Source: Mesostigma viride (taxonomy: Eukaryota; Streptophyta; Mesostigmatophyceae; Mesostigmatales; Mesostigmataceae). From it: DNA of 64,000 nucleotides. The stretch is from the NCBI GenBank assembly GCA_009746045.1, contig RPFO01000348.1:1034301-1098300 (forward strand). Reading direction: 5' to 3'. Positions 9,631-53,530 of this stretch are shown piece after piece (within the stretch, counting starts at the first letter, position 1; the number at the start of each line of letters is the position of its first letter). The notes under the pieces are model-generated. The model did not search any database. It worked only from the letters and a program-made list of their open reading frames with translations, and was not told the origin of the DNA. A program made the translations under genes and the position numbers.

Positions 9631-10362
9631 ACTCACTACCTTGCCTGCATGGGGGGCCAACAGAATCAGAATTGGTATTTGTATTTGCACACTGTCCTCC
9701 TGACGGTGGTGCTCGCCATGATTCGGTCGGTTTTCCCCCACGCGAACATCCGGTCCGAGGATGCGGATGGCGCTGCCTTCTATTCCCCGGCCCAACCACC
9801 GGCCTGACATCGTGGTGCTGGACTTTGAGGGGGGTGGCCGGCATCTGCTTATTGACGTTTCGGTGGCGCGGCCCTTGGCTCTTAGCCACGTGGCTGGGGC
9901 CTCCCTCACGGCAGGTTACACGGCGGACCGGGCGGAGCGGGCCAAGCTCCTGGCCTACGGCGACGTCGGGCACCATCGTGTGGTGCCCTTTGTCCTGGAG
10001 GAGTTTGGTGCCATGGGGCCCCTGACCTCCGCCTTCTTCAAGGAGTGTTGCCGGCTCCGGGAGGACCGGCTGGACCTGGAGGGCCAGCGGGCCCCATGGT
10101 CGGCGCGGACCTGGACGTCATATTGGCGTCAGCGCTTGTCGGTGGCGCTGACTCGGGCCATGGCTGACATCATGCTCCGCCGTACGCGGGCTGATTTTGC
10201 GGTGCAGCAGGGCTATTAGGTTCCTCCCGTTAGGCGTTTCCATTGGTCTTATCGTAGTATAGAGCTTTGACATGGCTCTGTATATAGGTTTATAGCTGGG
10301 CGTTTGCTTTGGTTTGAGTGATTTCACTCTGCTGTAAGTAATTATATTTTTAATATATATAT
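9628..10362 (+). mobile_element. LINE-1 copy C, 3' fragment with GGCC frameshift
   Basis: Contains only the C-terminal third (finger-nuclease) and the 3' UTR, following copy B in the same direction. It matches copy B except for a 4-bp insertion at 9787-9792, where CCAACC has become CCGGCCCAACC. The insertion breaks the frame just before the RPD motif. The 5' junction is in ATATATTAA and the 3' tail ends in (AT)n, immediately against the tail of the oppositely oriented copy D. Confidence 0.88.
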
Positions 10363-12260
10363 TAAAAATATAATTACTTACAGCAGAGTGAAATCACTCA
10401 AACCAAAGCAAACGCCCAGCTATAAACCTCTATACAGAGCCATGTCAAAGCTCTATACTACGATAAGACCAATGGAAACTCCTAACGGGAGGAACCTAAT
10501 AACCCTGCTGCACCGCAAAATCAGCCCGCGTACGGCGGAGCATGATGTCAGCCATGGCCCGAGTCAGCGCCACCGACAAGCGCTGACGCCAATATGACGT
10601 CCAGGTCCGCGCCGACCATGAGGCCCGCTGGCCCTCCAGGTCCAGCCGGTCCTCCCGGAGCCGGCAACACTCCTTGAAGAAGGCGGAGGTCAGGGGCCCC
10701 ATGGCCCCAAACTCCTCCAGGACAAAGGGCACCACACGATGGTGCCCGACGTCGCCGTAGGCCAGGAGCTTGGCCCGCTCCGCCCGGTCCGCCGTGTAAC
10801 CTGCCGTGAGGGAGGCCCCAGCCACGTGGCTAAGAGCCAAGGGCCGCGCCACCGAAACGTCGATAAGCAGATGCCGGCCACCCCCCTCAAAGTCCAGCAC
10901 CACGATGTCAGGCCGGTGGTTGGGGGAATAGAAGGCAGCGCCATCCGCATCCTCGGACCGGATGTTCGCGTGGGGGAAAACCGACCGAATCATGGCGAGC
11001 ACCACCGTCAGGAGGACAGTGTGCAAATACAAATACCAATTCTGATTCTGTTGGCCCCCCATGCAGGAAAGGTAGTGAGTCCCCGTGGGATCCAGCGGCT
11101 GCCCACAGCTACCACAAGGCCGCCCGGCCGGAACAAGAGGCTGCGGGGCAAATAGCTGGTGCCGGAGCGCCACCGAGTAGTGGCTGGGAGCCAAGGCGAA
11201 TGGGGGGGCCATGGGAAGAGCACGAAGGTACGCCGAGCCCACACTCCGCAAGGAAAGCGAGAACAGCCACGCACGTCCCTGGGCGTTGAGGTCCGCGAAT
11301 TAAAAGAGCAATCCAATCAGCCGTGTGCAGAATACCCGCGTAGGTTTTCTGGTGTTTATCGATGACGCGAGCAGGGAATGCGGCGGGAGATTGAACGGAG
11401 GCCGGCGACCGAGGGAGTGCCGCGAGGGAGGTGGCGCTGTACCGCCTGAGCGGCACGGACGGGAGAACAGGCCTGCTGGATCTCAGCATAGGCCTCCTGG
11501 ATGGCAGTGACGAAGGGCAAGGGGTTGCTGGGGTCCAGGAGGTCAGGCGCTGCCGTTGCCAAAAGGGGCAGGAGCCGGCAGCTTTCCGCCCACGACTGAG
11601 CGACGGAGCCCAAAAATGCTGCTGGGGCCAGCCGGGCGGCACGAGTCAGACCACAGCCACCCATCCGTGCAGGCAGGGAGGCAATGCGAATAGCATGTGG
11701 CGGGAGGTCGGGGCCCGGGACCAGCTGCGTCAAGGCCGACTGGATGCGTTCGTCGTGGCCCTCGGCGGCCAGCCGGACCTGAGCCGGAAGAGCGCCCCGG
11801 AGCCAGTGAACGACGCGAGGGTGAGCGCAAAACCACAGAAGCAGACCCTTGGTCTGCGAATCATGAAGGCGCGCAATCAAGGGCAGTACCTCAGTGCGTG
11901 CCTCGAGGGCGGCCCGCAGAGCATCGATGACAAACGCGGGGTCGCCAACCGGAACGCCGAGGACATCCAACCCATGGAGGCGCTCGTCCCGGCCCAAGAG
12001 CTGGGGCGGAAAGCCGGAGCAATCACCTTGGGGCGAGTACACCGCGCACTTGACCAGGGTCAACTGGAGGTTGATGTCGGCCACCGCGGTCTGCAGTGCC
12101 AGCAGAGCCGCGGCGGTGTCCGGCACAGGGCCCAGAAGGTAGATATCATCCAAGTAGGCCTGAATAGCGACCGCCGGGTGGGCAGCATGGACCGCTTGGA
12201 GGCAACCCTGGAGGGGGGCGGCAAAGTACAGGGGTCCCAGGGGGTCCCCTTGCTGGGTGC
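10363..12260 (-). mobile_element. LINE-1 copy D, 3' part
   Basis: Minus-strand LINE-1 that extends to about 15,180 once two foldback insertions (12,261-13,348 and 13,413-14,500) are removed. This part covers the RT from QGDPLGP and YMDD/YLDD through finger, nuclease and 3' UTR. The frame is broken by two 4-bp insertions absent from copies A and B: AATTAA at 11,298-11,303 and GGCCGG at 11,400-11,405. It is tail-to-tail with copy C at 10,362/10,363, giving a palindromic junction. Confidence 0.88.
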
Positions 12261-13348
12261 AGTTAGGTTAATATTGTGCGGAAACCTTTTTGCCACTTGG
12301 GCTTCTCAGGTTCCGCACAATATTACCGGCGATAACCACTCGCCGGACACTCAAGTTCACACCGGTGTGAACTTGAGTGTCCGGCGAGTGGTTATCGCCG
12401 GTAATATTGTGCGGAACCTGAGAAGCCCAAGTGGCAAAAAGGTTTCCGCACAATATTAACCTAACTAAAACCTAGCCTCTTGGGGCGAGGACGAATCACT
12501 AGGCTCGGAACACCCGTATGCATGAATATGATCGAATATAAGCATCTCGTTGGTGCAAATATCGATATGAATATGATCGAATATGAGCATCTCCTTGGTG
12601 CGCATATGATTAGAGCCGGGTGCCAAATCGGAACGAATTATTCCCCAAATAATCCGCTTCCGAGTGGATTCGAACCTGCGCCCCGCAAGGATCCAGGTCT
12701 TAGTTAGGTTAATATTGTGCGGAAACCTTTTTGCCACTTGGGCTTCTCAGGTTCCGCACAATATTACCGGCGATAACCACTCGCCGGACACTCAAGTTCA
12801 CACCGGTGTGAACTTGAGTGTCCGGCGAGTGGTTATCGCCGGTAATATTGTGCGGAACCTGAGAAGCCCAAGTGGCAAAAAGGTTTCCGCACAATATTAA
12901 CCTAACTAAGACCTGGATCCTTGCGGGGCGCAGGTTCGAATCCACTCGGAAGCGGATTATTTGGGGAATAATTCGTTCCGATTTGGCACCCGGCTCTAAT
13001 CATATGCGCACCAAGGAGATGCTCATATTCGATCATATTCATATCGATATTTGCACCAACGAGATGCTTATATTCGATCATATTCATGCATACGGGTGTT
13101 CCGAGCCTAGTGATTCGTCCTCGCCCCAAGAGGCTAGGTTTTAGTTAGGTTAATATTGTGCGGAAACCTTTTTGCCACTTGGGCTTCTCAGGTTCCGCAC
13201 AATATTACCGGCGATAACCACTCGCCGGACACTCAAGTTCACACCGGTGTGAACTTGAGTGTCCGGCGAGTGGTTATCGCCGGTAATATTGTGCGGAACC
13301 TGAGAAGCCCAAGTGGCAAAAAGGTTTCCGCACAATATTAACCTAACT
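12261..13348. mobile_element. 1,088-bp fully palindromic foldback element, copy 1
   Basis: Structure P-A-P-A'-P: P is a 206-bp perfect palindrome (12261-12466, 12702-12907, 13143-13348), A is 235 bp (12467-12701) and A' (12908-13142) is its exact reverse complement, so the whole element reads the same on both strands. It starts AGTTAGGTTAATATTG and ends CAATATTAACCTAACT. It is flanked by a 5-bp GGTGC duplication (12256-12260 and 13349-13353) and interrupts LINE-1 copy D; copy B shows the empty site. Open frames of 61-90 codons occur on both strands but mirror each other and are not credible genes. No transposase: presumed non-autonomous. Confidence 0.93.
12467..12701. repeat. A module of the foldback element, with B-box-like sequence
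   Basis: A 235-bp unit present four times: here, inverted at 12908-13142, and again at 13619-13853 and 14060-14294. It contains a ~44-bp direct duplication (GAATATGATCGAATATAAGC and GAATATGATCGAATATGAGC blocks). On the minus strand it has GCAGGTTCGAATCCACTCGG, an exact tRNA B-box core (GGTTCGAATCC). The T-stem around it pairs poorly, so it is not a functional tRNA; it may be tRNA-derived. Confidence 0.75.
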
Positions 13349-13412
13349 GGTGCCCGTCCGCGACAGCAGGCCGCCGCGAGTGCCGTCCTCCATGATGTGA
13401 ACCAGTTGGCCG
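13349..13412 (-). mobile_element. 64-bp piece of LINE-1 copy D between two foldback elements
   Basis: Short LINE-1 RT segment coding (minus strand) GQLVHIMEDGTRGGLLSRTG, identical in content to 7673-7736 of copy B. It begins with the GGTGC duplication of foldback copy 1 and ends with the GGCCG duplication of copy 2, which proves two independent insertions into one LINE. Confidence 0.9.
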
Positions 13413-14500
13413 AGTTAGGTTAATATTGTGCGGAAACCTTTTTGCCACTTGGGCTTCTCAGGTTCCGCACAATATTACCGGCGATAACCACTCGCCGGAC
13501 ACTCAAGTTCACACCGGTGTGAACTTGAGTGTCCGGCGAGTGGTTATCGCCGGTAATATTGTGCGGAACCTGAGAAGCCCAAGTGGCAAAAAGGTTTCCG
13601 CACAATATTAACCTAACTAAAACCTAGCCTCTTGGGGCGAGGACGAATCACTAGGCTCGGAACACCCGTATGCATGAATATGATCGAATATAAGCATCTC
13701 GTTGGTGCAAATATCGATATGAATATGATCGAATATGAGCATCTCCTTGGTGCGCATATGATTAGAGCCGGGTGCCAAATCGGAACGAATTATTCCCCAA
13801 ATAATCCGCTTCCGAGTGGATTCGAACCTGCGCCCCGCAAGGATCCAGGTCTTAGTTAGGTTAATATTGTGCGGAAACCTTTTTGCCACTTGGGCTTCTC
13901 AGGTTCCGCACAATATTACCGGCGATAACCACTCGCCGGACACTCAAGTTCACACCGGTGTGAACTTGAGTGTCCGGCGAGTGGTTATCGCCGGTAATAT
14001 TGTGCGGAACCTGAGAAGCCCAAGTGGCAAAAAGGTTTCCGCACAATATTAACCTAACTAAGACCTGGATCCTTGCGGGGCGCAGGTTCGAATCCACTCG
14101 GAAGCGGATTATTTGGGGAATAATTCGTTCCGATTTGGCACCCGGCTCTAATCATATGCGCACCAAGGAGATGCTCATATTCGATCATATTCATATCGAT
14201 ATTTGCACCAACGAGATGCTTATATTCGATCATATTCATGCATACGGGTGTTCCGAGCCTAGTGATTCGTCCTCGCCCCAAGAGGCTAGGTTTTAGTTAG
14301 GTTAATATTGTGCGGAAACCTTTTTGCCACTTGGGCTTCTCAGGTTCCGCACAATATTACCGGCGATAACCACTCGCCGGACACTCAAGTTCACACCGGT
14401 GTGAACTTGAGTGTCCGGCGAGTGGTTATCGCCGGTAATATTGTGCGGAACCTGAGAAGCCCAAGTGGCAAAAAGGTTTCCGCACAATATTAACCTAACT
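13413..14500. mobile_element. 1,088-bp fully palindromic foldback element, copy 2
   Basis: Appears identical to copy 1 (P 13413-13618, A 13619-13853, P 13854-14059, A' 14060-14294, P 14295-14500). It is flanked by a different 5-bp duplication, GGCCG (13408-13412 and 14501-14505), so it is a separate transposition event rather than a segmental duplication. The two copies lie only 64 bp apart. Confidence 0.93.
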
Positions 14501-15180
14501 GGCCGGGCTGGCCGTAGCACACGGCTGTCCAAGCGTACAAGTCCTCGAAGGACTCCATGACGGCCGCAAACATGCTGGCGCGGGACAGACTGTTGAACGC
14601 GTTGTGGCAGTCGACCTTGACGACAGCGTGGGTGGGGTGGGCCTCGAGGTAGGCCTGCACCGAATGGATGAGGATATCCGCCCCGCCTGGAGTCGTCACC
14701 CCCAGCTGGGCCGCCACCGAGGTCTCACCCGCTGCGAGGGGCGGGCAGAAAAAGGCACGGAGCTCGGGCGCCTTTTGGCGGCAGATCACTTTGCCCACGA
14801 GCTTGCGGAGCACCTCACCGCAGGCGATCGGGCGCACCTTGCCCTCGGGGGGGGGCAAGACACCCTTGAGCAGAGCGAGGAGGCGAGCGCCCGCTAACCA
14901 CTCGCGCGCAGCGGGAGGAACGCGACCAGCCGCCAGGTCAATGAGGGTGTCAAAGAGAATGTCCTCGCCCCCATGCCCCACCAGGACCTCCAAGTGCTCG
15001 TAGCGCCAGCCCGACGGCCCGGTAGAGGAAGCCCGCGGGACCGCACGCATCACCTCCAGGAAGCAGTCGCGGTCCAGCCGGAGGGGGGCCGGCAGGGGGT
15101 CCAGCACGGGCAGCTGGAAGCCGGGCTCCGCAGGGTGAAGAGCCTCCAAGGCCGCCAGGGTAGCCGCATTGGCGTATATA
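14501..15180 (-). mobile_element. LINE-1 copy D, 5' part (RT fingers)
   Basis: Minus-strand frame of about 219 residues with the upstream RT motifs missing from copy B: TGPSGWRYEHLE, LLALLKG...GKVRPIACGEVL, the block GVTTPGGADILIHSVQAYLE, and VKVDCHNAFNSLSRASMF with the first catalytic Asp. It is truncated at about 15,170-15,190 in a short duplicated GTAGCCGCATTGGC(C/G)TATATATA. Together with 10,363-12,260 this gives a nearly complete LINE-1 RT-finger-nuclease protein. Confidence 0.87.
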
Positions 15181-15217: not shown

Positions 15218-16643
15218 TGCAACCTGGTGAGTTTCCCGCCACCGCCTGATCTTCGTTGCATGACTTCATCAAGGCTTTTGATTCTGTCCTCTGGGACGCT
15301 CTATGGGCTGTACTTGCTCGCGCTCGCGTCCCCACTCCCCTGATTACCGTCATCCGCACGCTGTATGAGGGGTCGACCACTTCGGTACGTGCGCACTCAC
15401 ACGGCTAGCTTTACCCCGCCATGCCCACTGCAGACCTGCGTCTGGCAGGGATGCGTCCTGTCGCCGTACCTGTATATTATTGTAGTGGATTATGTTATCA
15501 CGGCGCCAGTGACGTGCTCGCTTTGCTAGCATGCATTGCAGGCCGTGCCCCTGGCCTAGCGATCACGAACGAGCTTGGAGAAGGGGGGCCGACTAACAAG
15601 CAGAATTTACTAGCTGACCTCATTTATGCCGATGACATCACGCTCGAATCGAGAAGCCAGAGTCTGCCCAACTTTGGCTGGAATGCCTGGCGCTCGAGGC
15701 TTGGGCGGTCGGTCTAGCTAGAAATCAGCCCCAAAACGGAGGACCTGGCCCTCGGCATGGCTGCCAGGGCCCCTACCCACGCTCCGCCTCTTAGACGATG
15801 CCGAGGTCAACTACCCTCCTTCAGGCCGCTTCAAGCTGCACGGCAGTTGGCTTCCCGACTGCGACGACGACATGACGACACGGGTCGGCATGGCGTGGCC
15901 GGGCGCAACTCCATGACCACCGCCGCTCAGTGGTGGAGCAACCCCGCCCTACCCCGGATCGTCAAGCGTGACCTCTTCAAGGTCGTCATTCTGACGATGC
16001 TGACCTACGGCGCCGAGACCTGGACACTGACGCAGGAGCTGGAGCAACGACTCGACGGCAACGTCACCAAGAAGATGCTGCGCAAGGCCCTTACCATCCC
16101 CTTCGGTTTGCACATTAGTAATGAGGATTTGTACGCTGATTTGCCCTATGTTTCCCACATTATTAGGCACTGTCAGGCGCCTGGGCCTTGCCGGGCACCT
16201 GGCCCGCACAGATCAGGTAGACACACGATCAGATAGACTAGCTGGCACCAAGCCCGCCCAGCCTGGGCGATATGTCCTCACCTGGCGTGCCCCACGCCGC
16301 GCGCGGCAGGGCCGCCACCCGCGTGGACTTTTCGTACGTGATAGACTCGGCATGGACATGTGCTACACTAGCTAGACGTGACGGGCTCACACCCGGGCAG
16401 CCTCCTGGTTTGTCTGTAATATGGAGGCAGATGGTACGCAAGGATAGATGGCAAGTAACTTGATGAAGGAGACCACCCCCACGTCTGTGGGGGCTCCGCG
16501 TGTGACCAAGTATGGCATTCATAGCGATTCAGGCCGCGGTGCCCACAATTACACTGTAACTTGGACCTAGATAGCTTACACCATCCATCCATCCCATGTT
16601 CCCCTCCCACTGAGGACTTATGCTCACGTGACGCAGTCACGTG
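15218..16643 (+). mobile_element. LINE-3 copy 1, 5'-truncated and frameshifted
   Basis: RT remnant: DFIKAFDSVLWDALW, CVWQG-like block, LADLIYADDITLESR (YADD), LTMLTYGAETWTLTQELEQR, then a C-terminal DKLAGHLARTDQVDT-type segment. Several frameshifts versus the 21.3-kb copy, three caused by 4-bp self-complementary insertions (TGCATG 15257-15262, GTACGT 15385-15390, CTAGCT 15405-15410). The segment 15218-15255 is the empty site for the LINE-2 insertion found in the 21.3-kb copy. The 3' end carries the frame KETTPKP...THC.PCNYRT and finishes at the palindrome CACGTGACGCAGTCACGTG (16625-16643). Confidence 0.85.
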
Positions 16644-17296
16644 TCTATTAATTCATTAATTAATTCATTAATCCATTCCATCCGGCCCATGTTCCCCTCC
16701 CACTGAGGACTTATGCTCACATGACGCAGTCACGTGTCTATTAATTCATTAATTAATTAATAGGCGCCGAACTTACAATAGACTTATAATTTGTTATAAT
16801 ATCCTTATATTGTGTTCTATTGCATTCACTCCCTCGATCTCTCTTCTTTGGACTGCTATGCAGAACAAGAAGAGGTGGCAGAAGATTGTCCAGGCTCACA
16901 CGCCAGCCCCTGTGGGCAAGCCCCCTCCCCCCAAGCGGAAGGGGCGTTTTGCTGAGTAGTGTAGTTAGGATTTTCTATAGACTTGTAGATAGCTTAGAGT
17001 TAGCTTAGTTCAATCACGCGGCTTCGCCCACCTCCACCCATCCAGCAAGGAATATGTGCTACGTGATCTCCCCACGGAGTCATGTTATAACTTTATTTAT
17101 TTATTTTTTTTTTGTGTGTGTGTACTACTATCCTTTTCAGTTGACGCAGTCACGTGTCCGTATTAATTAATTATGCACCCCGAGTAGGTGGCAGTTTACA
17201 CCCCCTACCTGCAGGTTGTCGCCTATTGAATTGAGTTGAATTGAATTGTAATGTTGTTCATAACTCCGTTGGGAGTATATGTAGCACATATCCCTG
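16644..17296 (+). repeat. LINE-tail duplications, KKRWQKIV tail, R4 end
   Basis: A partial repeat of the LINE-3 terminus (about 16674-16740) with an extra GGCC (CCGGCC at 16682-16687) and a second CACATGACGCAGTCACGTG. Then 16,820-17,010, a LINE-4-type 3' end still reading MQNKKRWQKIVQAHTPAPV and a basic tail to a stop, then a TA-rich 3' UTR with TTTATTTATTTTTTTTTTG. 17260-17296 is an R4 repeat end cut by the LTR at 17297. Confidence 0.7.
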
Positions 17297-21284: not shown

Positions 21285-22990
21285 ATGCCATCTTCGTCGC
21301 GCGTCGCCTCTTCGAGGAAATCACTCTCCTGCAACCTGGTGAGTTTCCCGCCATCCTCCGTCCTGAGGATAGCCGCTACACTACCGCCTCGTCTGCCATT
21401 ACAGTAGAGGACAGCTCGGATGAGGATTACATCCCCATCTATAGTGCTTAACGGTTGGGGGATGATGCAGACGATATTTGTTTAAACTTTTGTGTCATTA
21501 TTTTTCTAATGAGATTAGCATAGTACTCCGTGGCATGCCTTTGCGCATGACACGCAAGTACTTACTTACTTACTTACTTACTTCCCGCCATCCTGATCTT
21601 CGTCGACTTCATCAAGGCTTTTGATTCTGTCCTCTGGGACGCTCTATGGGCTGTACTTGCTCGCGCTCGCGTCCCCACTCCCCTGATTACCGTCATCCGC
21701 ACGCTGTATGAGGGGTCGACCACTTCAGTGCGCACTCAACACGGCATTACCCCGCCACCATGCCCACTGCAGACCGGCGTCTGGCAGGGTTGCGTCCTGT
21801 CGCCGTACCTGTATATTATTGTAGTGGATTATGTTATCACGGCGCCAGTGACGTGCTCGCTTTGCTAGCATGCATTGCAGGTCGTGCCCCTGGCCTAGCG
21901 ATCACGAACAAGCTTGGAGAATGGGGGGCCGACTAACAAGCAGAATTTACTAGCTGACCTCATTTATGCCGATGACATCACGCTCGAATCGAGAAGCCAG
22001 AGTCTGCCCAACTTTGGCTGGAATGCCTGGCGCTCGAGGCTTGGGCGGTCGGTCTAGCTAGAAATCAGCCCCAAAACGGAGGACCTGGCCCTCGGCATGG
22101 CTGCCAGGGCCCCTACCCACGCTCCGCCTCTTAGACGATGCCGAGGTCAACTACCCTCCTTCAGGCCGCTTCAAGCTGCACGGCAGTTGGCTTCCCGACT
22201 GCGACGACGACATGACGACACGGGTCGGCATGGCGTGGCCGGGCGCAACTCCATGACCACCGCCGCTGGTGGAGCAACCCCGCCCTACCCCGGATCGTCA
22301 AGCGTGACCTCTTCAAGGTCGTCATTCTGACGATCCTGACCTACGGCGCCGAGACCTGGACACTGACGCAGGAGCTGGAGCAACGACTCGACGGCAACGT
22401 CACCAAGAAGATGCTGCGCAAGGCCCTTACCATCCCCTTCGGTTTGCACATTAGTAATGAGGATTTGTACGCTGATTTGCCCTATGTTTCCCACATTATT
22501 AGGCACTGTCAGGCGCCTGGGCCTTGCCGGGCACCTGGCCCGCACAGATCAGGTAGACACACGATCAGATAGACTAGCTGGCACCAAGCCCGCCCAGCCT
22601 GGGCGATATGTCCTCACCTGGCGTGCCCCACGCCGCGCGCGGCAGGGCCGCCACCCGCGTGGACTTTTCGTACGTGATAGACTCGGCATGGACATGTGCT
22701 ACACTAGCTAGACGTGACGGGCTCGTGAACACCCGGGCAGCCTCCTGGTTTGTCTGTAATATGGAGGCATGCAGATGATGCGCAAGGACAGATGGCAAGT
22801 AGTGATGAAGGAGACCACCCCCAAGCCTGTGGGGGCTCCGTGTGTGACCAAGTATGGCATTCATAGCGATTCGGGCCGCGGTACCCACTGTCACCCCTGT
22901 AACTATAGGACCTAGATAGCTTACACCATCCATCCATCCCATGTTCCCCTCCCACTGAAGACTTATGCTCACGTGACGCAGTCACGTGTC
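21285..22990 (+). mobile_element. LINE-3 copy 2, with a nested LINE-2 3' end
   Basis: 5'-truncated RT remnant. Upstream part: FVARRLFEEITLLQPGEFPA, interrupted at 21358-21581. After removal, it reads on as ILIFVDFIKAFDSVLWDALW, ARVPTPLITVIRTLYEGS, TGVWQGCVLSPYLYIIVVDY, then (frameshifted) LADLIYADDITLES, LTYGAETWTLTQELEQRLDG. Ends with LINE-3 terminal blocks and CACGTGACGCAGTCACGTG at 22970-22988. It carries a CATGCA insertion (22768-22773) absent from the 16.4-kb copy. Confidence 0.87.
21358..21581 (+). mobile_element. LINE-2 3'-end insertion with 13-bp target duplication
   Basis: 224 bp of the LINE-2 terminus (last codons ...EDSSDEDYIPIYSA, UTR, tail ACTTACTTACTTACTTAC), flanked by perfect TTCCCGCCATCCT (21345-21357 and 21582-21594). 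The LINE-3 copy at 15.23 kb shows the intact target. Heavily 5'-truncated, as usual in target-primed reverse transcription. Confidence 0.92.
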
Positions 22991-23904: not shown

Positions 23905-24071
23905 AAATGGCTGACCGCGGTATGGCTGACGGCGGAGTTCAGATCTTTTGCATCTGAGCCCCAAATTCGGTCAGACCACTCGCATTCGATGCGCCTTGTT
24001 GAGACGCACCCGCCAGTATAATCGGTTACGGCTGCAACGCAGTATTGCCAAAGTTACGCACGTGACCAGCT
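23905..24071 (+). other. 5' UTR of the LINE ORF1 gene
   Basis: Conserved with 20,757-20,940 (reverse strand) and, more weakly, 28,770-28,930. It begins at about GGCTGACGGCGGAGTTC and includes CCAGTATAATCGGTTACGGC. Its conservation upstream of three ORF1 starts suggests it is the element's 5' end and internal promoter; promoter activity is inferred. Confidence 0.6.
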
Positions 24072-25427: not shown

Positions 25428-25930
25428 AATAGCAATAGCCCTAGATTGTAACCATTGGCGTCACTGCCGCTAAGGCAGCCATGCCTAGACTGTTTGCCTA
25501 GCTGTGCCAACACACCTAGTCACGTGCCGCCAACGCACGGTCCACAACCAGCCATAGCCTAGTACAGCCATGCTACGCCCTGGCTATGTTTAGCCAAGCC
25601 ATGCCTATAATGGGACCCCCCCATGGATGTTGCATTAAGAATTTAGCCACGCTATGCCATGCAGAGAGATGCTCTCTGTCGAGAAGCCATGTCCTAGCTC
25701 TTGTATAGCCATGCTGATCTTCCTCCCTCACAGGCATGCTCCCCCCTTACCCGGGCATAGCGTGATAGACCATGAGGGTGCAGGTGCCCTGGTGCACCTA
25801 GAGCAAGGGTAGCTTACATTCCCACCCTTGCATGAAGTAGCCTAGGATGTATTAAAAGCCATATGCCCCTTCTCAGGGATATGCGCTACATTGACTCCCA
25901 ACGGAGCGATGTTGATAATAATAATAATAA
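25428..25930 (+). repeat. ORF1-element 3' region and R4 repeat
   Basis: 25,428-25,600 matches 47,725-47,990 (…GCCACTGCCGC..GGCAGCCATGC). 25,640-25,915 is an R4 copy in plus orientation, ending CAGGGATATGCGCTACATTG ACTCCCAACGGAG and then (ATA)n. R4 recurs at 27.6, 46.2, 52.0/53.3 kb (plus) and 3.58, 17.26, 19.8, 48.06, 56.27 kb (minus). Confidence 0.7.
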
Positions 25931-34139: not shown

Positions 34140-34320
34140 TCGCTTGCTACAGATTTAACGACCGGAAAATAGACAAAGATTGCACGCAACCTTCCAATGG
34201 TGCCGGCTGCGATTTAACCTTCGTTTGCTGGGCGCTGCACGCTGCAATGTATCGAGTCAATTTGCGCGGGATCTGGAACTTTGAATATAACTTACGTTTA
34301 GGCAAGAGGCTGCGGCGTCA

Positions 34321-38200: not shown

Positions 38201-39717
38201 TGCGCATGGCTGAACGTTGCTGGCAAACGATCTTGGAGCAGGTGATGGGTGGCAAGCTCTGCCTGGTAGGACAACTTGTGTGCAGCTATGAGATTGTGCA
38301 CGAGTCCGTCGGCGGCCGCACAGTGAACCGTCCTAGAAGATTCCATGGTCAAGTGGCAGCTGTGGACACGGAACATGGCAAGGTGGCTATGTTTTGGGGT
38401 GCTCAATGGGAAGAGCTGGCGGTGACGTGTGTGGACCTCCCAGAATTGGGGAAGAAAATCTGTGGATGCCCCGGTGTGTCCGTCCCTCCTCTGCAAGCGT
38501 CTGAGATCGCCGTTGCCGAGTCCCGCTTACGTGCGGAGGTGCACGCTGCGCTGACCAGCGCAACTGCGCGCAGCTCGCCTGAGGCAGCGCGCGGCACGGC
38601 CGACACAACTAAGCGCAAGCCGCCTGCGCCTGCAGCAACCGGCACAGCCACGCGCAACCCACGTGCGGTGGCGACCAACTTGCGCGCAGCAGTGCGCGCC
38701 CTGAATGATAAGGCTGCAAGTGACTTGCGTGCGCCCGCGTGTGCGGCCACCGGCGCGGCTGCACCTGCCAACTCGCCTGCGCCTGCACTCACGACCACCG
38801 GCGCGGCTGCACCTAGCAAGTCGCCTACGCCCGCGCCTGCGGCCACCGGCGCGGCTGCACCTGCCAACTCGCTTGCGCCTGCGCGCGCGGCAGCACCTGC
38901 CAACTCGCCTGCGCCTGCGCGCGCGGCCACCGGCGTGGCTGCACCTGCCAACTCGCCTACGCCCGCGCCTGCGGCCACCGGCGCGGCTGCACCTGCCAAC
39001 TCGCTTGCGCCTGCGCGCGCGGCAGCACCTGCCAACTCGCCTGCGCCTGCGCGCGCGGCAGCCGGCGTGGCTGCACCTGCCAACTCGCTTGCGCCTGCAC
39101 GCGCGGCAGCACCTGCCAACTCGCCTGCGGCCACCTGCGCGGCTGCACCTGCCAACTCGCTTGCGCCTGCGCGCGCAGCAGCACCTGCCAACTCGCCTGC
39201 GCCTGCGCGCGCGGCAGCCGGCGTGGCTGCACCTGCCAACTCGCCTACGCCCGCACCTGCGGCCACCGGCGCGGCTGCACCTGCCAACTCGCTTGCACCT
39301 GCGCGCGCGGCGGCACCTGCCAACTCGCCTGCGGCCACCTGCGCGGCTGCACCTGCCAACTCGCTTGCGCCTGCGCGCGCAGCAGCACCTGCCAACTCGC
39401 CTGCGCCTGCGCGCGCGGCCACCGGCGTGGCTGCACCTGCCAACTCGCCTACGCCCGTGCCTGCGGCCACCGGCGCTGCTGCCGCACCTGCCAACTCGCT
39501 TGCGCCTGCGCGCGCGGCAGCACCTGCCAACTCGCCTGCGCCTGCGCGCGCGGCCACCTGCGCGGCTGCACCTGCCGACTCGCCTGCGCCCGCGCGCGCG
39601 GCAGCCGGCGCGGCTGAAGAAGATATGTTGTCTGATTCCCGTCGTCGCCGGGCACGCCGTTACATAGTGTGTCCGGACAGCGATAGCGATGGAGCCCCGG
39701 AGGCTATGGAAACATGA
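35263..39717 (+). CDS. large DDE-type (DUF7869-like) transposase candidate
   Basis: Uninterrupted 1,484-residue protein, the largest gene of the 10.4-kb element and presumably its transposase. Acidic N-terminus (SDSDDDDD) and a basic KKKK patch, then CKCSNHC at about 68-74. C302...C313-x2-C316 (VNPHSRNTGECETC) looks zinc-binding. The core has the order typical of the DUF7869 group: MNIDKLDHAKT (D371, D374), FCAPVHGYKAFWFV, VLQADGGSENRNY (D463, E467), MRRGHTHADTDQKFG (H498, D502, D504). These acidic residues are candidates for an RNase H-like active site. Residues ~1156-1451 are an Ala/Pro repeat (APANSPAPARAAT type), then a basic-acidic tail. Met at 35263 is the first in-frame and gives a charged start. 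Other possibility: a captured host protein, but position between the inverted repeats argues for transposase. Confidence 0.78.
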   Translation: MAEHVEWDGGIVSDSDDDDDFAYHDGDPMHPSADAPSRPKRPGKQTGSELKKKKVAAVNADWHNDRSCKCSNHCLTTYDSLLANPDVWTAVREDFYSLSDKARTQRLNSIIRSVGVGNIRVKPSEVGGHCTITITGQVHVDVKLGDGPRRQTVTLSACATAMRKLLGIDSSGWNKVVKCIAHSTQFFDARDDVGQYQLLRARADAERRERVKGRSDATEYAARWISNLVRDLGDCDPARPDVVYMDAMPITHMHSMYVEDAERDFPGNDNAARSMILGYHGFYAVWHRYREGNYYEGSPKVCVNPHSRNTGECETCAELRQLLRYAATEGERALIKHLIQLHVALVRFARQNYWTRRDLALVWEFISMNIDKLDHAKTFWPKLLQASKNWDGKDMVQFSLFCAPVHGYKAFWFVVLPWVLMCDNLSGSLTVTMLMHCLACVMRDRPWSKSGKPRPRCLVLQADGGSENRNYTVLLFAWYLVHIGVFDVVEMHRMRRGHTHADTDQKFGVLLGSMSHGVDGASGQAHAYGTLESWVDAIRAAFHSSSLAGSCNVTVPMGTEVKVLGKAWDCRPFLLILKSLKLLRWCSSRDWCAKVGEEVPEKVGQSMKPHHVAFFRVEGSDEEWFVYRTTEATVTPWLPEGMREEKAPRSGKVKVAPYKHDAKGRPLYGVRAVDPDLLAKHGLADAPPPAPIDMQFITTKLMKGIKKKVLDLPSGQGRIFFKPDVPGCEDMQKRNEEFFAKVPRSVDDVPEEWCPLPWRYAIEMAAAADRAAPAGPQPAVAPDNMALVNEAALRVVPHVDPVCHEGRTLDEWRQEDAAYAAKVAHDRRMEGLKEGSVVLYWHPTCQMLCNTDVPWPPILVGVVKKVEQPADEGGSEPHLVLSVYRARSMTDAWHQWDPNSATWPLPSKSSVNSHTVTIAASEVILTHWIPAKKPASRHLVSLDAKKKLSAACLTALKQVPRDAGHPTIDWQLASTPKGVVRMAERCWQTILEQVMGGKLCLVGQLVCSYEIVHESVGGRTVNRPRRFHGQVAAVDTEHGKVAMFWGAQWEELAVTCVDLPELGKKICGCPGVSVPPLQASEIAVAESRLRAEVHAALTSATARSSPEAARGTADTTKRKPPAPAATGTATRNPRAVATNLRAAVRALNDKAASDLRAPACAATGAAAPANSPAPALTTTGAAAPSKSPTPAPAATGAAAPANSLAPARAAAPANSPAPARAATGVAAPANSPTPAPAATGAAAPANSLAPARAAAPANSPAPARAAAGVAAPANSLAPARAAAPANSPAATCAAAPANSLAPARAAAPANSPAPARAAAGVAAPANSPTPAPAATGAAAPANSLAPARAAAPANSPAATCAAAPANSLAPARAAAPANSPAPARAATGVAAPANSPTPVPAATGAAAAPANSLAPARAAAPANSPAPARAATCAAAPADSPAPARAAAGAAEEDMLSDSRRRRARRYIVCPDSDSDGAPEAMET
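38730..39615 (+). repeat. Ala/Pro coding repeat array in the transposase
   Basis: About 20 imperfect units of 33-45 bp (GCACCTGCCAACTCGCCTGC) coding APANSPAPARAA variants, in frame throughout. Open on both strands, which gives a spurious 384-codon antisense frame. Confidence 0.92.
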
Positions 39718-40480
39718 AGTCGCGGTTGCATGCTACCATTGTTGCTACCAATGATTGCTATGTGTGCACCATGGCTGCCAACATTGCTGCTTCCTTTGCT
39801 GCTTCTCCGCTGATATGCCGTGCTTTTGATTCACTCTCTGCCATGCATGCCAGTATAGTGCTGCCACCATTGTCATGATGTAACTTGTCAACACCAATGC
39901 ATGTTCTGATTCTGATGTGATTAATTATATTCCTGGCCTGCATGAGTCTGTTGAGGTTGTTTGTCGCTGCTGCGGCTGCTATGACCATTACTAGTGTGCT
40001 CATGTGAGTTTTTTGCCATGTCCATTTGCGCAGTCATGGAGCATTTCAAGGTTTGCCCGAGATTTACGAGACCCAACCAAGTGTCAGTCATTTTCCGCGA
40101 AGCCGCGATATAATCCCTGACAGAAACTGGCAAAAACCACATGGAACATGCGCAGCATCCTCCTTGATAATGTCTCATGTAGTAGATACATTCCAGCCTT
40201 TGCAATTACAATCACGTCACTAAATTTTAAAGTATGCAAAATTACAAGCTGTGAGTGCAATTGTCTCTACTCATCATAAGATACCAGCTTGACAATCATG
40301 AATGCCCATTTGGTTACAGCATATAAGGCAACTTGTCATTATATAACACAATTATTGACTTGAAACTCCTCGACCAATGCAAAAATTTGCCCAAACCTTC
40401 TATCAAACTATTTTGGGAAGTCCACAGCATTCAAAAAACACAGATTTCAAATTTTCATTTAGGACAGACCTGCAGCCTCC

Positions 40481-40510
40481 CAAATCTGTCCTAACCCAAA
40501 CAAACCACCC
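40481..40510 (-). repeat. right terminal inverted repeat of the 10.4-kb transposon
   Basis: Reverse complement of 30147-30176 over 30 bp; ends CAAACAAACCACCC, followed by the TTG duplication at 40511-40513. Confidence 0.95.
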
Positions 40511-40513
40511 TTG

Positions 40514-41012
40514 CCCAGGCGACTTTGAGAATAGAATCCTTGTCCGGCCCCATGGCTCTCACTGGTGAGGGCATCAGCGGGCAAGCCGGGGGTGACCCGC
40601 CTCAATTCACTACGCCCCGCGGGCCGCGGGGTAAGGCTCATCCGTGGCGGGCATCCGGCTGCGGTCCCCCACTGCTCCTCACCTTTGACACCATGGCGGA
40701 TAAGATGGAGTTCCTCAAGTGCCGCAAGCGGCTTGGTGGGACATCCTACACACTGGACGACGACTTGACCCTGCATGGCGCAGCAACAACGGCCGGCGGC
40801 GGATCGAGCTATGGCCGACCTACCTCCAACTCCGGCAGACTCTGTCTGCGCAGGGCAGAAGCTAGCCGCGGTGTACTGTTCAGAGGCGGGGGCGGTAGGT
40901 CACCTACGTTGCCCACAAGCCCTTGCAGGCGCGCCCCCTCCGGCCGACTCCTGCCGCCCCAGCAACCCCAGCATGCAACACAAGCTTATAGGCGGGAAAG
41001 CCCCTTAAGCTT
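40514..41012 (+). pseudogene. LINE ORF1 copy 3, 3' part
   Basis: Continuation of the ORF1 cut at 30146. Reads LAQATLRIESLSGPMALTG, PLLLTFDTMADKMEFLKCRKRL and SYTLDDDLTL, then loses frame. Breaks include TGCATG 40772-40777, GGCCGG 40791-40796 and GATCGA 40802-40807, each absent from the 26.3 and/or 50.1-kb copies. 41,020-41,310 is the ORF1-element 3' region, shared with 47.87-48.01 and 51.77-51.86 kb. Confidence 0.82.
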
Positions 41013-46169: not shown

Positions 46170-46620
46170 TGTGCCTGTATGCCTATGATTATAGTATTAA
46201 TAATTCCCACCAGATGACGCACCGGTGTTTATTATGTAGTTAGCCGTGCTTTGCCCATGCAGAGAGTTATATATATATATTTAAAATAGAATTACTTGCA
46301 GCAGAGTGAAATCACTCAAACCAAAGCAAATATATACTCTCGGCTGAGACACCATGCATATGCACATCATGCCGTACATGTATAGACCTTGCCTACTAGC
46401 CATAATCATCTTCCACCTCATGTGAACTCGCACCTTAGCTAGCTGCTGGAATACATATAGGTGCAGGTGCACGGTCCTTGCACACCCAATGTAGGTGGCA
46501 GTTTGGACCATCCACTTGCGGGAACTGTATAGTCCAGAATGTATCAAAAACCATAGCCCCCCTCTCATGCAGGGATATGTGTTGTAAACATATGCTCCCA
46601 ACGGAGATATGTCTTTAATC
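46170..46620 (+). repeat. R4 repeat split by a LINE-1 tail
   Basis: R4 (GCAGAGAG...CTCTCGGCTGAGAC, CACCTTAGCTAGCTGCTGGA) interrupted at 46,268-46,332 by a ~60-bp minus-strand LINE-1 3' terminus inserted in TATATATATAT. It contains AGCTAG at 46437-46442, where the 27.78-kb copy has AG. Confidence 0.75.
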
Positions 46621-46744: not shown

Positions 46745-47724
46745 CACCTGGCCGTTGGCCCAGAAGCTGACCTCGCTGAACACGACGCTCAACACGCCGT
46801 GGAGGCCCGCCAATGGGGTCCGTCGCCAAGTTACGGGGTCCGTCCAATGTGGAAACCAAGGTCGTCCACAAGCTCCAACCTCAGTTCACGGCGCTGCACA
46901 CGGTCCGCGGTGCAGGCAGGCATCTGCATGAGACGCACGCTGCACTTGTCTCTCCCCTATTTACCAGGTTGAGGGCAAGTGCGGCGTGCTGATGAAGAAG
47001 CTTGAAGTCATCACCGCCCACATGCACCGAGGCCCTGGCCACACAGGTCCCAAAGATAGCGGAGCAGACGGCCACCATCGCATCCCAGCCTCCAGCCGGC
47101 AGGATCGATGCTGGGCGACCTCCCGCGGCGCTCTCCTATGCGGACCTGTTGCGGACAGCGACCGCCTCAACCACGTTGACGCCATCGCCGCGAAACTCCA
47201 GGAGCGGTTGAAGACCTCATCGCCAAGCGCAACATCAGGACCTCGGCACCGATCGACCGCGCTTGCCGCGACTGCCGGGTGGTGCTGCGTCGCTTTGCCC
47301 AGAAGCCAGGTGAGACGTCAACCACCCTTGCCGACGAGCTCGATCAAGGAGCAGCTCCTTACCCTCATGGGCCTGGTAGGTGAGGTAGAACTGCGTGCGT
47401 GCCGCCACCGGCCCACCGCCTTCCCCACTCACGGGACAAGGCGGCTCCCCCACCAGTCGATCCTGCTCACCTAAGTTCCCCTCGACCCCCGAGAACAAGC
47501 AGTTAGCAGCGGTTCCTTTCTTGTCGCAAGAGGTTGCACAACCTCACCTGGACGCTGGACGACGACCTGACCCCCGCTCAGCAGCAGCAGCGACGCGTCG
47601 GACCCGGTCGGGCCGGAATACCTCCGCCATGCACAAGCGTGACCCCCAGAAGCCCAAGGTACGGTACTGGAGGGGCGGGGACCTGATGATCAACCACAAG
47701 ATGTGGACGCCCCCTGCAGGCTAG
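46745..47724 (+). pseudogene. LINE ORF1 copy riddled with 4-bp insertions
   Basis: Aligns with 24,580-25,430 (coiled coil through C-terminus, last line DLMINHKMWTPPAG* intact), but no frame stays open. Insertions relative to the intact ORF1 include CATGCA 47021-47026, GATCGA 47103-47108, GATCGA 47251-47256, TCGATC 47340-47345, TCGATC 47457-47462 and CATGCA 47628-47633, plus other small indels and a scrambled stretch at 46,790-46,860. 47,725-48,050 is the shared ORF1-element 3' region, with no gene. Confidence 0.85.
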
Positions 47725-48429: not shown

Positions 48430-49890
48430 AAATTAAATTATAACATGCCTCCGTTGGGAGATCATGTAGCACGTATTCCTTGGATGGGTGGAGGTGGGAG
48501 AAGCCGCGTAATCGACCTAATCCTAATGGCTAAGCAATCTAGTCTAGAAAATTCCAACTACACTACTCAGATGAACGCCCCTTCCTCTTGTGTGGGGGTG
48601 GCTTGCTCACATGCAGCTGGGCTGGCGTGTGAGCCTGGACAATCTTCTGCCACCTCTTCTTGTTCTGCATGGCAGACCAAAGAAGGGAGAGGGAGTGGAT
48701 TAATTAATTCATTAATAAGCACGTGACTGCGTCACGTGGGTGCCAATACAGAGTAAAGGAACCTTCAACCCTATATACACAGCGAGAAGGAGGGAGGGCG
48801 CCCTATAGCTTCTCTCACTGCCGCAAGTGGGCAGGCCACAGAGCGCTCTCTCCACAGCATGGTGCATCATGCCGGGGCGCAACACTGTGGGTGCAATACA
48901 ACCAGTGCAATACCATAGGTAGGCTGACGCATAGCTTATGCTACACATTTGTGAGGTGGGCTCAAGACGTCGGCTAATTATGTAAGGCGCATTGAAGCTG
49001 ATGACCACAAGGTGCCAGAGCTAATTGAAGGGAGTGGATGCGGTGCTCAAACTGGGCTGGGGCCACTAGGTCGGCCAGCAATTAACATCTGGGTGTAGTT
49101 CATGGCAGGTTTACCTAGCTTCCTGGGAATGTCCTTGGGGCCAGGCCAGGTCAAGATATGCCGCCCTGGTTGGCCAAGCCGCTGGGGGCCGGCCAGACCA
49201 AGGGCGGTGTCGAGACCTGGCTGGTGCGAGCAAGATGTCCTACAAATGCTATCCTACGCAGCCTGCCTAATCTCGTCCGAAATACGAGGCATACCCTGAT
49301 ACAAAGACTCTATATAATGACCTACGCTTGGAAAACCCTACATTCAGGACCTGTCGGAGCATCCTGTAAACCGTGCCTTCTAGCTAAGCTGCCAGTGTGT
49401 CCGTGATCGAGTGCATGTCCACACCTTGGCGCCATACGTAAGCACCGTGATGAGGACGAGGATCGACCTTGAAGAGCATGCGGTTGCGGTGCTCGCCCAG
49501 GCCCTTCGAGCGCCAGTAGGTGTTGAGCGATCCGGCGAACGGAGCCTGGCCCAGCTAGGCCAGGCCGATGCGGATGTCCACATCGTCAGCGGTGTCAGGG
49601 AGCATGCTTCCCAACAGTTTGAAGCGGTCACGGAACGGGACCTCCGTCCCGTCGAGCAGGTGCGGCAGCGGTGGGCGACTGGAGGCCCCAATCACCATCG
49701 CCTCAGTTTTGACACTAATAATCTCCAACCCCACCGCCCTGGCCCGTCCAAGCCCAGACAGTCCAGCCAGGTCTGAATGTGCTCGGGGTGCGCGACGAGG
49801 GCCGGTGGTGTCATCCGCATAAATCAGGTCGGCCAGACAGTAGCTAGTGCCAACCCCGCCGTGCTCGCGCTCGTTAAGGATGTCCACGCA
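48430..49890 (-). mobile_element. LINE-4 RT C-terminal part and tail, with nested R5
   Basis: Minus strand, from LADLIYADDTT at about 49,830 (YADD), through EAMVIGASSRPPLPHLLDGT, RFKLLGSMLPDTADDVDIRI, VLTYGAKVWT and a decayed HLART..DTALGLAGP segment (49,140-49,330), to the KKRWQKIV-type end and 3' UTR at 48,430-48,690. Interrupted by R5 at 48,701-49,028. Multiple frame breaks. Confidence 0.82.
48701..49028 (+). mobile_element. R5 retroposon-like element with 11-bp target duplication
   Basis: 328 bp flanked by AGGGAGTGGAT (48690-48700 and 49029-49039) inside LINE-4; the 51.32-kb LINE-4 copy shows the empty site (GAGAGTGGATGCGG). Near its 5' side is CACGTGACTGCGTCACGTG, then AAAGGAACCTTCAACCC. 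Non-coding. Other copies: 26.61/27.42 kb (minus) and about 59,740-59,930 (intron 1 of the RMD1 gene). Duplication length fits LINE-mobilised retroposition. Confidence 0.82.
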
Positions 49891-51064: not shown

Positions 51065-51640
51065 AAATTAAATTATAACATGCCTCCGTTGGGAGATCAT
51101 GTAGCACATATTCCTTGATGGGTGGTGGAAAGGAGAGAGCCGCGTAATCTAACAATCCTAACGCTAATCTACCTAGTCTAGAAAAATCCTAACTGCCCTA
51201 CTCATCAAAACGCCTCCTCCTCTTTGGGGGAGGGCCGGGCTTGCCCACAGGGTCGGGCGTGTGAGCCTTGACAATCTTCTGCCACCGCGTCTTGTTCTGC
51301 ATGGCAGTCCAAAGAAGGGAGAGAGAGTGGATGCGGTATTCAAACTGGGCTGGGACCAGTAGGTCATCCAGCAACATCTGTACGTAGTTCGTGGCATGTT
51401 TCCCTACCCTTTTGGGAATGCATGCCCTTGGGGTCAGGCCAGGTCAGAATGTGCTGCCCTGGCTGCATGGCCAAGCCGCTGGGGGCCTGCCAGACCAAGG
51501 GCGGTGTCGACCTGGCTGGTGCGAGCAAGGTGTCCTACAAATGCTATCCTACGCTGTCTAATCTCGTCCGAAATACGAGGCATGCTGGTTCTGGTCGATA
51601 AAAGCTACATGTCAATATCCGGATGCAGAACGCCGTGATA
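51065..51640 (-). repeat. LINE-4 3' end, uninterrupted copy
   Basis: Minus strand. Same order as 48.43-49.33 kb without R5. Includes TGCATG insertions at 51419-51424 and 51464-51469 relative to 49.13 and 49.16 kb. Followed to about 51,940 by ORF1-element 3' region relics and AT-rich DNA without genes. Confidence 0.75.
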
Positions 51641-51949
51641 TTTGTATGAGTATTCCGTTCCAATTAATTAATTAATTAGTCCAGCCGACCATCGTCCACG
51701 ACATTCAGTCGTGGATCAGGTGTAGGTCTTTCGCAGCCGGCAGTCCGCCGGATGTAAAAAAAGGGGGTCTCTGCCCTTTCTTCCTGTTGTGCACATACAG
51801 TAGGGATTAAAAGCACTTCGCCTGCTCCGTGACTCCCCAACAGGAGCACGAGTTCAATTAATTAATTAAGAGTTGTCTCACTTTTAAGAATGACGCATCA
51901 ACGATCACCGCTCTAGGGAATATATAGCAGTAGTGTAGATTAATTAGTC

Positions 51950-53530
51950 CGGCTTAGTTAGCTTAGCATGTGGCTCACCAGCTTTGCGCATGCACGCGCC
52001 TCTAATGGGACTCCCCACGGATCGATGATGCATTAAGAATTTAGCCAAGCTTTGCCTATGCAGAGAGCTACTCTCTGCTGAGAAGCCATATGCCCTAGCT
52101 AGCCATTGTTTAGCCATGATGATCTTCCCCGCTATGTCCGCGCCCTAGGTGCTGGAATACATAGTGGTGTAAGTAAGTAAGTAAGTACTTGCGTGTCATG
52201 CGCAAAGGCATGCCACGGAGTACTATGCTAATCTCATTAGAAAAATAATTACACAAAAGTTTAAACAAATATCGTCTGCATCATCCCCCAACCGTTTTAA
52301 GCACTAGATGGGGATGTTATCCTCATCCGAGCTGTCCTCTACTGTAATGGCAGACGAGGCAGTAGTGTAGCGGCTATCCTCAGGACCAATAACCTCCACC
52401 TGCGGACTTCTACCCTGGCTAGCAACGGGCTGCGGGGCCCGTGGGGAGAAAACAGGAGCATACCCCTCGGGAAGGTGCTTATCGCAGATGGCAGCCCATT
52501 TCTCCTTGTCAATCATGCGGGCGCGGAGTACGGATAGTCCCAGAAGCCCTGCATCTTCAAGCAGTTGTGTCACATAGGTCCGGGTCGTGCCGCGCCGGTG
52601 CCCGGCGCGCGCAAGTTTGACAGTGGGTTGCGATGGGACAAGGGGACCCTGCCATAGGAGGAGGTGTCTACCTGGTTGGCCCGTCTTAAGCCCCCCGGCA
52701 GGGCCCACATCGGTATTCACCTGGTCTGTGCGGGCAAGATGGCCGGCAAAGAGGAGGCGGCGGTGTCGGATGGTATGGGTGACAAGAGGGAGCTCGCGGT
52801 AGAGCTCGGCCCGGGTGCGGCGTTCTTGGTAGCGGACGCCGAGGATATGACGGAGCATTCGAGTGACGGTGCCGTCAAGCTGCTGGCTCAGCGCCTGGTC
52901 CAGGGTCCACGCCTCGCAGCCATAAAGGAGGATGCTGAGGACAAGGGCCTTGAACAGAATGCGCTTGCGTCGCTCACTCAGGTAGCGACAGGTCCAGAAC
53001 CTGTCGAGGCGGCGGAGGGCCGCCCAGACCTGGCCAATGCGGGTGTTGATGTCGTCGGCCGTGGAGGGAAGCCAGCTGCCAAGGAGCTTGAAGCGAGTCG
53101 CCGGGGGGACGGGGCTGCCGTCCAGCAAGAGGAGGGTGGGTGGGGCTATCCCAGCAGGGAAGCCGATGGCCATGACCTCCGTTTTCTTGCTGATCATAAG
53201 CCCCACCGCCCGCGCTTCCAGTGATAAGCTGTCTAGCCAGAGCTGGGCTGACTCCGGGGTTTCCACGAGTGTCACATAGTGGTGTGCAGGTGCACTTTGT
53301 GCACCCAGAGCAGGTATAGCTTACGCCCTACTCAGGTGTAGCTTACACCCTGTGTAGTGGTGTGCGGGTGCCCTTTGTGCACCCAGAGCAGGTGTAGCTT
53401 ACACCCTACTCAGACCTGTGTAGCTTACACCCTTCCCTTGCAGGAAGCAGCCTAGAATGCCATACGCCCCTTCTCAGGGATATGTGCTACATGTACTCCC
53501 AACGGAGATATGTTACAATTCTAATTTAAT
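51950..53530 (+). repeat. R4 repeat split by a LINE-2 insertion
   Basis: R4 5' part 51,950-52,170 and 3' part 53,286-53,530, the latter with an internal duplication of the GTGTAGCTTACACCCT block. GATCGA at 52020-52025 is an insertion relative to 25,620. Confidence 0.75.
52171..53273 (-). mobile_element. LINE-2 copy, 5'-truncated, with 12-bp target duplication
   Basis: 1,103 bp flanked by perfect ACATAGTGGTGT (52159-52170 and 53274-53285) within R4. Minus-strand frame of 323 residues (53,275 to 52,304) from LDSLSLEARAVGLMISKKTE through LLYGCEAWTLDQALSQQLDG, YQERRTRAELYRELPLVTHT to EDSSDEDNIPI and a stop; tail (ACTT)n at 52171-52187. It is the intact-frame comparator for 44,540-45,480. Confidence 0.92.

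Follow-up and report, generated by a model that had tools for sequence, protein, structure and literature searches.

What leaves short insertions of one recurrent form in the repeats of Mesostigma viride, a freshwater streptophyte alga and early-branching relative of the land plants? The question arose from a 64,000-nucleotide stretch of contig RPFO01000348.1 (positions 1,034,301 to 1,098,300; hereafter the window), in which a sequence-only reading had noticed 4-bp insertions that turn a dinucleotide XY into the hexamer XY-Y'X'-XY (primes denote complementary bases). This signature is genuine and broader than first described. The typical insertion product consists of the left dinucleotide, the reverse complement of a target (T) of 2–4 bp and the right dinucleotide, with a net gain of 4 bp. 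The insertions are probably excision footprints of DNA transposons, formed through hairpins on the flanking DNA.

An insertion rule with a net gain of 4 bp

The genome searched was the M. viride assembly G000 (439.9 Mb, 2243 contigs), which we take to be the published NIES-296 assembly. The available text of the report on the latter describes 2363 scaffolds built from PacBio reads with Illumina polishing (PMC6947507). The window was aligned to itself with long simple repeats excluded, and gaps were kept only when they had good flanks. Outside the window, 30 loci around a short interspersed nuclear element (SINE)-like family and twenty 10-kb segments from a single contig were used (298 kb, including 17.7 kb of N). 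The total compared sequence, with the window, was about 360 kb, aligned all-versus-all with locus L001 left out. The sampled loci are non-random, as 30 of the 50 were picked for one repeat family and the remaining 20 come from a single contig. We designated an insertion as derived when it was present in one copy and absent from at least three; polarity was thus assigned by copy counts, with no outgroup. Class counts were restricted to a placement slip of less than 4, and all counts come from assembled sequence.

Four base pairs is the most frequent gap size at every level of the comparison: 44 of the 177 distinct gaps in the window self-alignment, 351 of 1483 inserted-state sites (290 of 1027 clusters) in the all-versus-all comparison, and 122 of 321 derived insertions. 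The products fall into three classes according to target length n. Class 1 (n = 2) converts XY to XY-Y'X'-XY, class 2 (n = 3) converts XYZ to XY-Z'Y'X'-YZ, and class 3 (n = 4) converts XYZW to XY-W'Z'Y'X'-ZW, so that two, one and none of the target bases are duplicated in the product, respectively. The rule is obeyed by 80 of the 108 derived 4-bp insertions (52, 11 and 17 for n = 2, 3 and 4). When the inserts were permuted among these sites 500 times, the mean was 9.9 fits and the maximum 20, which rejects a chance origin. The form XY-Y'X'-XY noticed in the sequence-only reading accounts for 52 of these 108 sites, compared with 7.9 by permutation. Within the window alone, 4-bp gaps with a slip of exactly two bases had the form XYY'X'XY in 12 of 12 cases.

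Among the 262 clustered 4-bp sites, classes 1, 2 and 3 account for 80, 25 and 26, and 131 fit none. Control inserts gave 27, 10 and 0 fits when complemented, 5, 2 and 0 when reversed, and 6, 1 and 2 in the same sense; the complement count probably derives in part from words that satisfy both rules, such as TA and AT. Treating 6000 random genomic 4-mers as insertions yielded 208 fits (3.5%). A model-free dependency table (slip 0, n = 90) indicates that insert bases 1–4 complement R2, R1, L1 and L2, with z values of 3.7, 5.7, 5.1 and 2.7. None of seven alternative geometries adds an exclusive fit among the 108 derived sites, and they were rejected, their hits being nearly all class 1–3 as well. 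Among derived insertions, the 6-bp analogue is found in 0 of 10 and the 8-bp analogue in 0 of 7; across all contexts the counts are 1 of 47 and 0 of 18. At alignment identities of at least 96%, the 4-bp gaps belong to the three classes in 30 of 30 cases (non-independent pairs). The event rate, also from non-independent pairs, is approximately 3–12 per 100 substitutions where identity is at least 75% and is lower in more diverged alignments. Two other routes were rejected: 4-nucleotide tandem duplication through fill-in as the principal source, by the slip of less than 4 in 108 of the 122 derived 4-bp insertions, and deletion of a pre-existing palindrome, by the rule fitting only 1 of 5 sites classed as likely deletions.

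All 24 hexamers originally listed are present at their positions, and 17 of them coincide exactly with a 4-bp gap against an aligned copy (9787, 11298, 11400, 15257, 15385, 15405, 16682, 22768, 40772, 46437, 47021, 47103, 47340, 47457, 47628, 51419 and 51464), those at 16682 and 47628 only against copies beyond the window. The remaining seven are not exact. The sites at 40791, 40802 and 41352 have 3-bp gaps in weak alignments, that at 23714 falls at a 10-bp gap, and no gap passed the flank filter at 26256, 44590 and 47251. The description of the comparison copies as near-identical was overstated, several being 70–85% identical. The scars catalogued in the window, none of which is assigned a strand, are as follows.

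9787–9792: class 1 scar, CC to CCGGCC, within a long interspersed nuclear element (LINE) copy; absent in 7 alignments
11298–11303: class 1 scar, AA to AATTAA, within a LINE copy that shares approximately 98–99% identity with its neighbours; absent in 3 alignments
11400–11405: class 1 scar, GG to GGCCGG, in the same LINE copy as the 11298 scar; absent in 3 alignments
15257–15262: class 1 scar, TG; absent in 2 alignments
15385–15390: class 1 scar, GT; copy at 21730 (96% identical) without the insert
15405–15410: class 1 scar, CT; copy at 21747 without the insert
16682–16687: class 1 scar, CC; absent in 3 alignments, the listed ones being loci outside the window
16834–16839: class 1 scar, TC, within a member of the SINE-like family; absent in 29 alignments
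22768–22773: class 1 scar, CA; absent in 2 alignments
40772–40777: class 1 scar, TG; absent in 7 alignments
46437–46442: class 1 scar, AG; window self-alignment, placement slip 5
46566–46571: class 1 scar, CA, new; absent in 3 alignments
47021–47026: class 1 scar, CA; absent in 3 alignments
47103–47108: class 1 scar, GA; single alignment, 78% identity
47340–47345: class 1 scar, TC; absent in 3 alignments
47457–47462: class 1 scar, TC; absent in 4 alignments
47628–47633: class 1 scar, CA; exact against locus L011
49080–49085: class 1 scar, AA, new; absent in 25 alignments
51419–51424: class 1 scar, TG; absent in 2 alignments, placement slip 4
51464–51469: class 1 scar, TG; absent in 6 alignments
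15926–15932: class 2 scar, CTG to CT-CAG-TG; absent in 5 alignments
16169–16175: class 2 scar, ACA to AC-TGT-CA; absent in 3 alignments, also in the duplicate at 22505
22887–22893: class 2 scar, ACA to AC-TGT-CA; absent in 4 alignments
46900–46906: class 2 scar, ACC to AC-GGT-CC; absent in 3 alignments
49258–49264: class 2 scar, GCT to GC-AGC-CT; absent in 15 alignments
22723–22730: class 3 scar, TCAC to TC-GTGA-AC; absent in 3 alignments
46582–46589: class 3 scar, TTAC to TT-GTAA-AC; absent in 4 alignments
53412–53419: class 3 scar, AGGT to AG-ACCT-GT; single alignment
22904–22907: 2-bp version with a self-complementary target, C-TA-G to C-TATA-G; absent in 2 alignments
48804–48807: 2-bp version, C-TA-G to C-TATA-G; absent in 5 alignments
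52088–52091: 2-bp version, C-AT-G to C-ATAT-G; absent in 4 alignments

That chance palindromes and a reader's selection of examples could have produced this picture is hardly conceivable. Hexamers of this kind abound (618 in the window when all 16 are counted), but the permutation result for class 1 and the 12 of 12 slip-2 cases given above stand against this explanation. An artefact of sequencing, consensus or assembly is very improbable as well, even though the analysis rests on assembled sequence rather than raw reads. In old non-coding DNA of the window, the 12 non-self-complementary hexamers number 275 compared with 85 expected from trimers (3.2-fold; 1.17-fold for 15 other fillers), whereas in open reading frames (ORFs), young elements and genic DNA together they number 68 compared with 70, the regions having been grouped after the region-by-region ratios were seen and 1411–5600 (ratio 1.80), 12261–14504 and 24000–25600 (0.47) left out of the grouping. 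This distribution argues against an assembly artefact, as does the combination of PacBio reads and Illumina polishing in the accessible description of NIES-296 (PMC6947507), if that assembly is identical to the one searched. The hexamers are also in excess in the flanks of 29 SINE loci (531 compared with 260) and, more weakly and unevenly, in evenly spaced stretches of one contig (640 compared with 449).

Flanking bases, self-complementary targets and candidate elements

The bases around T are not neutral. Counted symmetrically, C before or G after T occupies 70 of 160, 30 of 50 and 26 of 52 ends in classes 1, 2 and 3, respectively (p = 9e-5, 7e-6 and 1.5e-3 against a background of 29.5%). The recurrence of this C|T|G preference in all classes marks T as a genuine unit, with both strands cut after C.

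Self-complementary dinucleotides behave differently, in that they mostly yield XYXY (+2) instead of the 4-bp product. Derived 2-bp duplications with slip 2 have self-complementary targets in 16 of 18 cases (p = 1e-6), and all such duplications in 30 of 37, compared with 32% expected. The 21 duplications of TA or AT are preceded by C in 18 cases and followed by G in 13 (p = 4e-9). When XY is self-complementary, overhangs of the form XYY'X' can pair over four bases, which would give XYXY.

The window also contains a candidate for a scar-making element, with the following parts.

30147–40510, no strand assigned: DNA transposon of 10.4 kb with perfect 30-bp terminal inverted repeats (TIRs; 30147–30176 and 40481–40510)
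30144–30146 (left) and 40511–40513 (right), no strand assigned: 3-bp target-site duplication TTG
35254–39717, plus strand: ORF of 1487 codons with the Pfam domain DUF7869 (E = 7.7e-14), the presumed transposase

The element is young. Genome-wide, its TIR has 100 matches with up to three mismatches, 50 per strand, many of them as facing pairs. Where the flanks of copies were read, 18 of 21 have a duplication of exactly 3 bp and 3 have none. The duplications are preceded by C in 9 cases and followed by G in 12, or 21 of 36 ends (p = 3e-4). The element thus shares with class 2 both the target length of 3 bp and the C|T|G preference (21 of 36 compared with 30 of 50 ends). Because its duplication is strictly 3 bp, it can explain only the smallest class (n = 3), and we rejected it as the sole source of the scars. 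The DUF7869 region retrieved no relative among 7994 proteins scored, and sequence searches of PDB and NCBIfam gave no match. A single-sequence structure prediction had a mean pLDDT of 34 and was set aside. Further long frames lie on the minus strand of the element, and a complex palindrome occupies its center, at 34328–34849.

CACTA transposons are a second group of interest. At least 150 CACTA transposase matches were found in the assembly (150 of 239 first-look candidates scored), many with identical scores, which suggests recent amplification. Of the 26-base words taken upstream of one copy, those at 2400 and 2000 bases fall in another high-copy repeat (271 and 550 places), and that at 1600 bases occurs at 8 places, most of which have a CACTA match no more than approximately 13 kb away on the same contig.

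Screens for TIR elements with 2-bp duplications found none, either in the window or in all loci; they are weak because their low-complexity filter concealed even the known 10.4-kb element. The best 2-bp candidate beyond the window, at 8016–8634 of locus L031, proved to be inverted LINE-related repeats. Interrupted repeat copies show mostly longer duplications, many with retroelement-like tails, and include no clear 2-bp case. By the same weak screens, no filled counterpart of a scar, with an element at the scar position, was recognized in the approximately 360 kb.

Several other repeats occur in the window. The SINE-like family at 16822–17105 has an AATTT-type tail and 4420 first-look candidates in the genome, of which 40 were scored. 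The LINE frame at 7521–9488 matches predicted proteins of Mesvir1 with identities of 86% (over 65% of its length), 70% (59%) and 100% (31%). The Mesvir1 gene models P0001 and P0003 join parts of host genes to LINE sequence and are probably annotation errors. Scans of viral contigs with two LINE proteins gave no relative. Two copies of a nearly fully palindromic element of about 1.09 kb, with AGTTAGGTTAATAT termini and 5-bp duplications, lie at 12261–13349 and 13413–14500. A solo-long terminal repeat-like insertion (TG...CA) at 4917–5614 has an apparent 5-bp duplication, CCTAG, and the copies at 5909 and 6200 lack the insertion. A 710-bp insertion at 26711–27420 has a 7-bp duplication, CTCTGTG, and is missing from the copy at 48837.

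Proposed mechanism and competing explanations

For excision through hairpins, we propose the following sequence of steps. Transposons would cut each target strand just after C and duplicate a T of 2, 3 or 4 bp, the 2-bp and 4-bp targets presumably being supplied by families other than the DUF7869 element. Excision would leave the flanks as hairpins, in which a 3' end that retains two T bases connects to the opposite strand, the latter carrying the whole of T. A hairpin-opening nuclease would then cut on the far side of T, and the two 3' overhangs, T and its complement, could anneal and be filled in to give XY, the reverse complement of T and ZW, with a net gain of 4 bp. With a self-complementary dinucleotide as T, the overhangs may instead pair over four bases and give XYXY. 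The idea of hairpin excision had already been put forward in the sequence-only reading, where one of the three classes was noticed; it remains the best fit, predicts the self-complementary exception and agrees with the hairpin model of Ac/Ds. The accompanying formula of a 2-bp target duplication plus two palindromic nucleotides does not hold as a general rule, because the same gain of 4 bp arises with 3-bp and 4-bp targets.

Several observations weigh against transposon excision. The hairpin model does not account for the retention of two T bases on each side and the net gain of 4 bp at every n, and a mixture of families alone leaves this constant gain unaccounted for. The DUF7869 duplication is 3 bp in 18 of 18 duplicated copies, so n = 2 and n = 4 are not explained by it. 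The weak screens of the approximately 360 kb, in which short low-scoring candidates were mostly left aside, established no element that duplicates 2 or 4 bp, and the upstream words did not reach the ends of the CACTA copy. The putative scars are known from the comparison of repeats and not from witnessed excision. The rule itself has exceptions: 28 of the 108 derived insertions have no exact fit, and a further 14 derived 4-bp insertions, with slip of 4 or more, were excluded from the class counts. In an alignment-free word test, no clear excess was seen at n = 3 or n = 4, some controls being equal or higher. The self-complementary exception is incomplete, as AT or TA stands at 4 of the 52 derived class 1 sites. 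Duplications of GC or CG lack the C/G preference (C before in 2 of 9, G after in 0 of 9; 2 of 18 ends), and 69 of 87 derived 2-bp insertions differ from the slip-2 XYXY form. There is also a +3 relative, in which 13 of 26 derived 3-bp insertions with slip of less than 3 equal the class 1 product minus one base, mostly GG to GCCGG in the window and the loci. Separately, simple XYZXYZ duplications make up 11 of 43 derived 3-bp insertions.

One alternative involves no transposon excision. In a host break-and-repair process, both strands would be nicked after C with a 5' stagger of 2–4 nucleotides, and the 3' ends would be filled by two bases, closed into hairpins and then reopened. In its favor, a single product rule and a single C|T|G preference span staggers of 2, 3 and 4, and the weak screens established no element with a 2-bp duplication. 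We nevertheless regard it as unlikely, though it is the most serious competitor. The DUF7869 insertions show the same flank preference, and to our knowledge hairpin-closed ends in eukaryotes are known mainly from cutting by transposases or RAG. Template switching during replication, in which the nascent strand copies 2–4 nucleotides of the opposite strand and then returns, is considerably less probable. The product can be expressed as a two-jump switch, and short-range switches have been described in great ape genomes (PMC7954356, in the text available), but the net gain is almost always 4 bp, with the 6-bp and 8-bp analogues missing from the derived insertions, and neither a symmetric C/G preference nor the self-complementary exception would be expected. 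The same constancy of length disfavors the snap-back polymerase error suggested at the outset.

Excision of transposons through hairpins stays our preferred explanation. A bolder and less likely reading is that one genome-wide process of fixed geometry, with cuts after C on both strands, 2–4 nucleotides apart, and a net gain of 4 bp through an inverted copy of the target, would be chiefly responsible for the short insertions of Mesostigma. This process could be either one lineage of hairpin-forming transposase with a flexible stagger or an element-free host activity; the opened hairpins would anneal via their own templated bases, making repair near-deterministic.

Relation to known excision and repair systems

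Scars left by transposons tend to be messy and difficult to recognize, and the putative scars of Mesostigma follow an almost exact rule. If they are footprints, old sequence would allow a base-by-base tally of past transposon activity, and genome data would reveal the geometry with which the DNA is cut and the hairpins are opened. A 4-bp insertion shifts the reading frame, and it is the commonest derived insertion size in the sample. Mesostigma may also offer a natural test bed for the opening and joining of hairpin DNA ends. Literature searches, which left subscription papers mostly uncovered, found no description of the +4 rule.

In V(D)J recombination, Artemis opens the hairpin 2 nucleotides past its tip, which produces P nucleotides. 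The Mesostigma scars are similar in that two nucleotides would be templated by hairpin opening; they differ in that both ends would be joined through templated bases, and no RAG system is implied. Short template-switch mutations have variable lengths. They share with the scars an inverted copy of adjoining bases, in contrast to the nearly fixed length of +4 in Mesostigma.

Among transposons, CACTA (EnSpm) elements have a listed target size of 3 bp (PMC4423477, Table 1), and soybean Tgm9 left footprints of 4 bp and 0 bp in two lines, according to the portion of the report available (PMC4015899); in Mesostigma, CACTA is represented by abundant transposase matches. Excisions in rice are also a source of small indels, with 8 of 94 putative excisions perfect, deletions averaging approximately 18 bp and fillers of 13 bp in the accessible part of that study (PMC4423477), whereas the Mesostigma scars are uniform and short. 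The hAT elements Ac/Ds are a close parallel. In yeast, plants and Candida, hairpins account for their palindromic footprints, the insertions being templated by the flanks as in Mesostigma and the hairpins being opened, in the model, by the Artemis-related Pso2 (PMC5873905, available sections). The same sections report mixed Ac/Ds footprints that include short deletions, the 128 revertants showing 28 kinds (PMC5873905), and hAT targets are listed as 8 bp (PMC4423477, Table 1), compared with targets of 2–4 bp and one dominant net length in Mesostigma. By analogy, the Mesostigma scars would be hairpin footprints like those of Ac/Ds, but unusually uniform.

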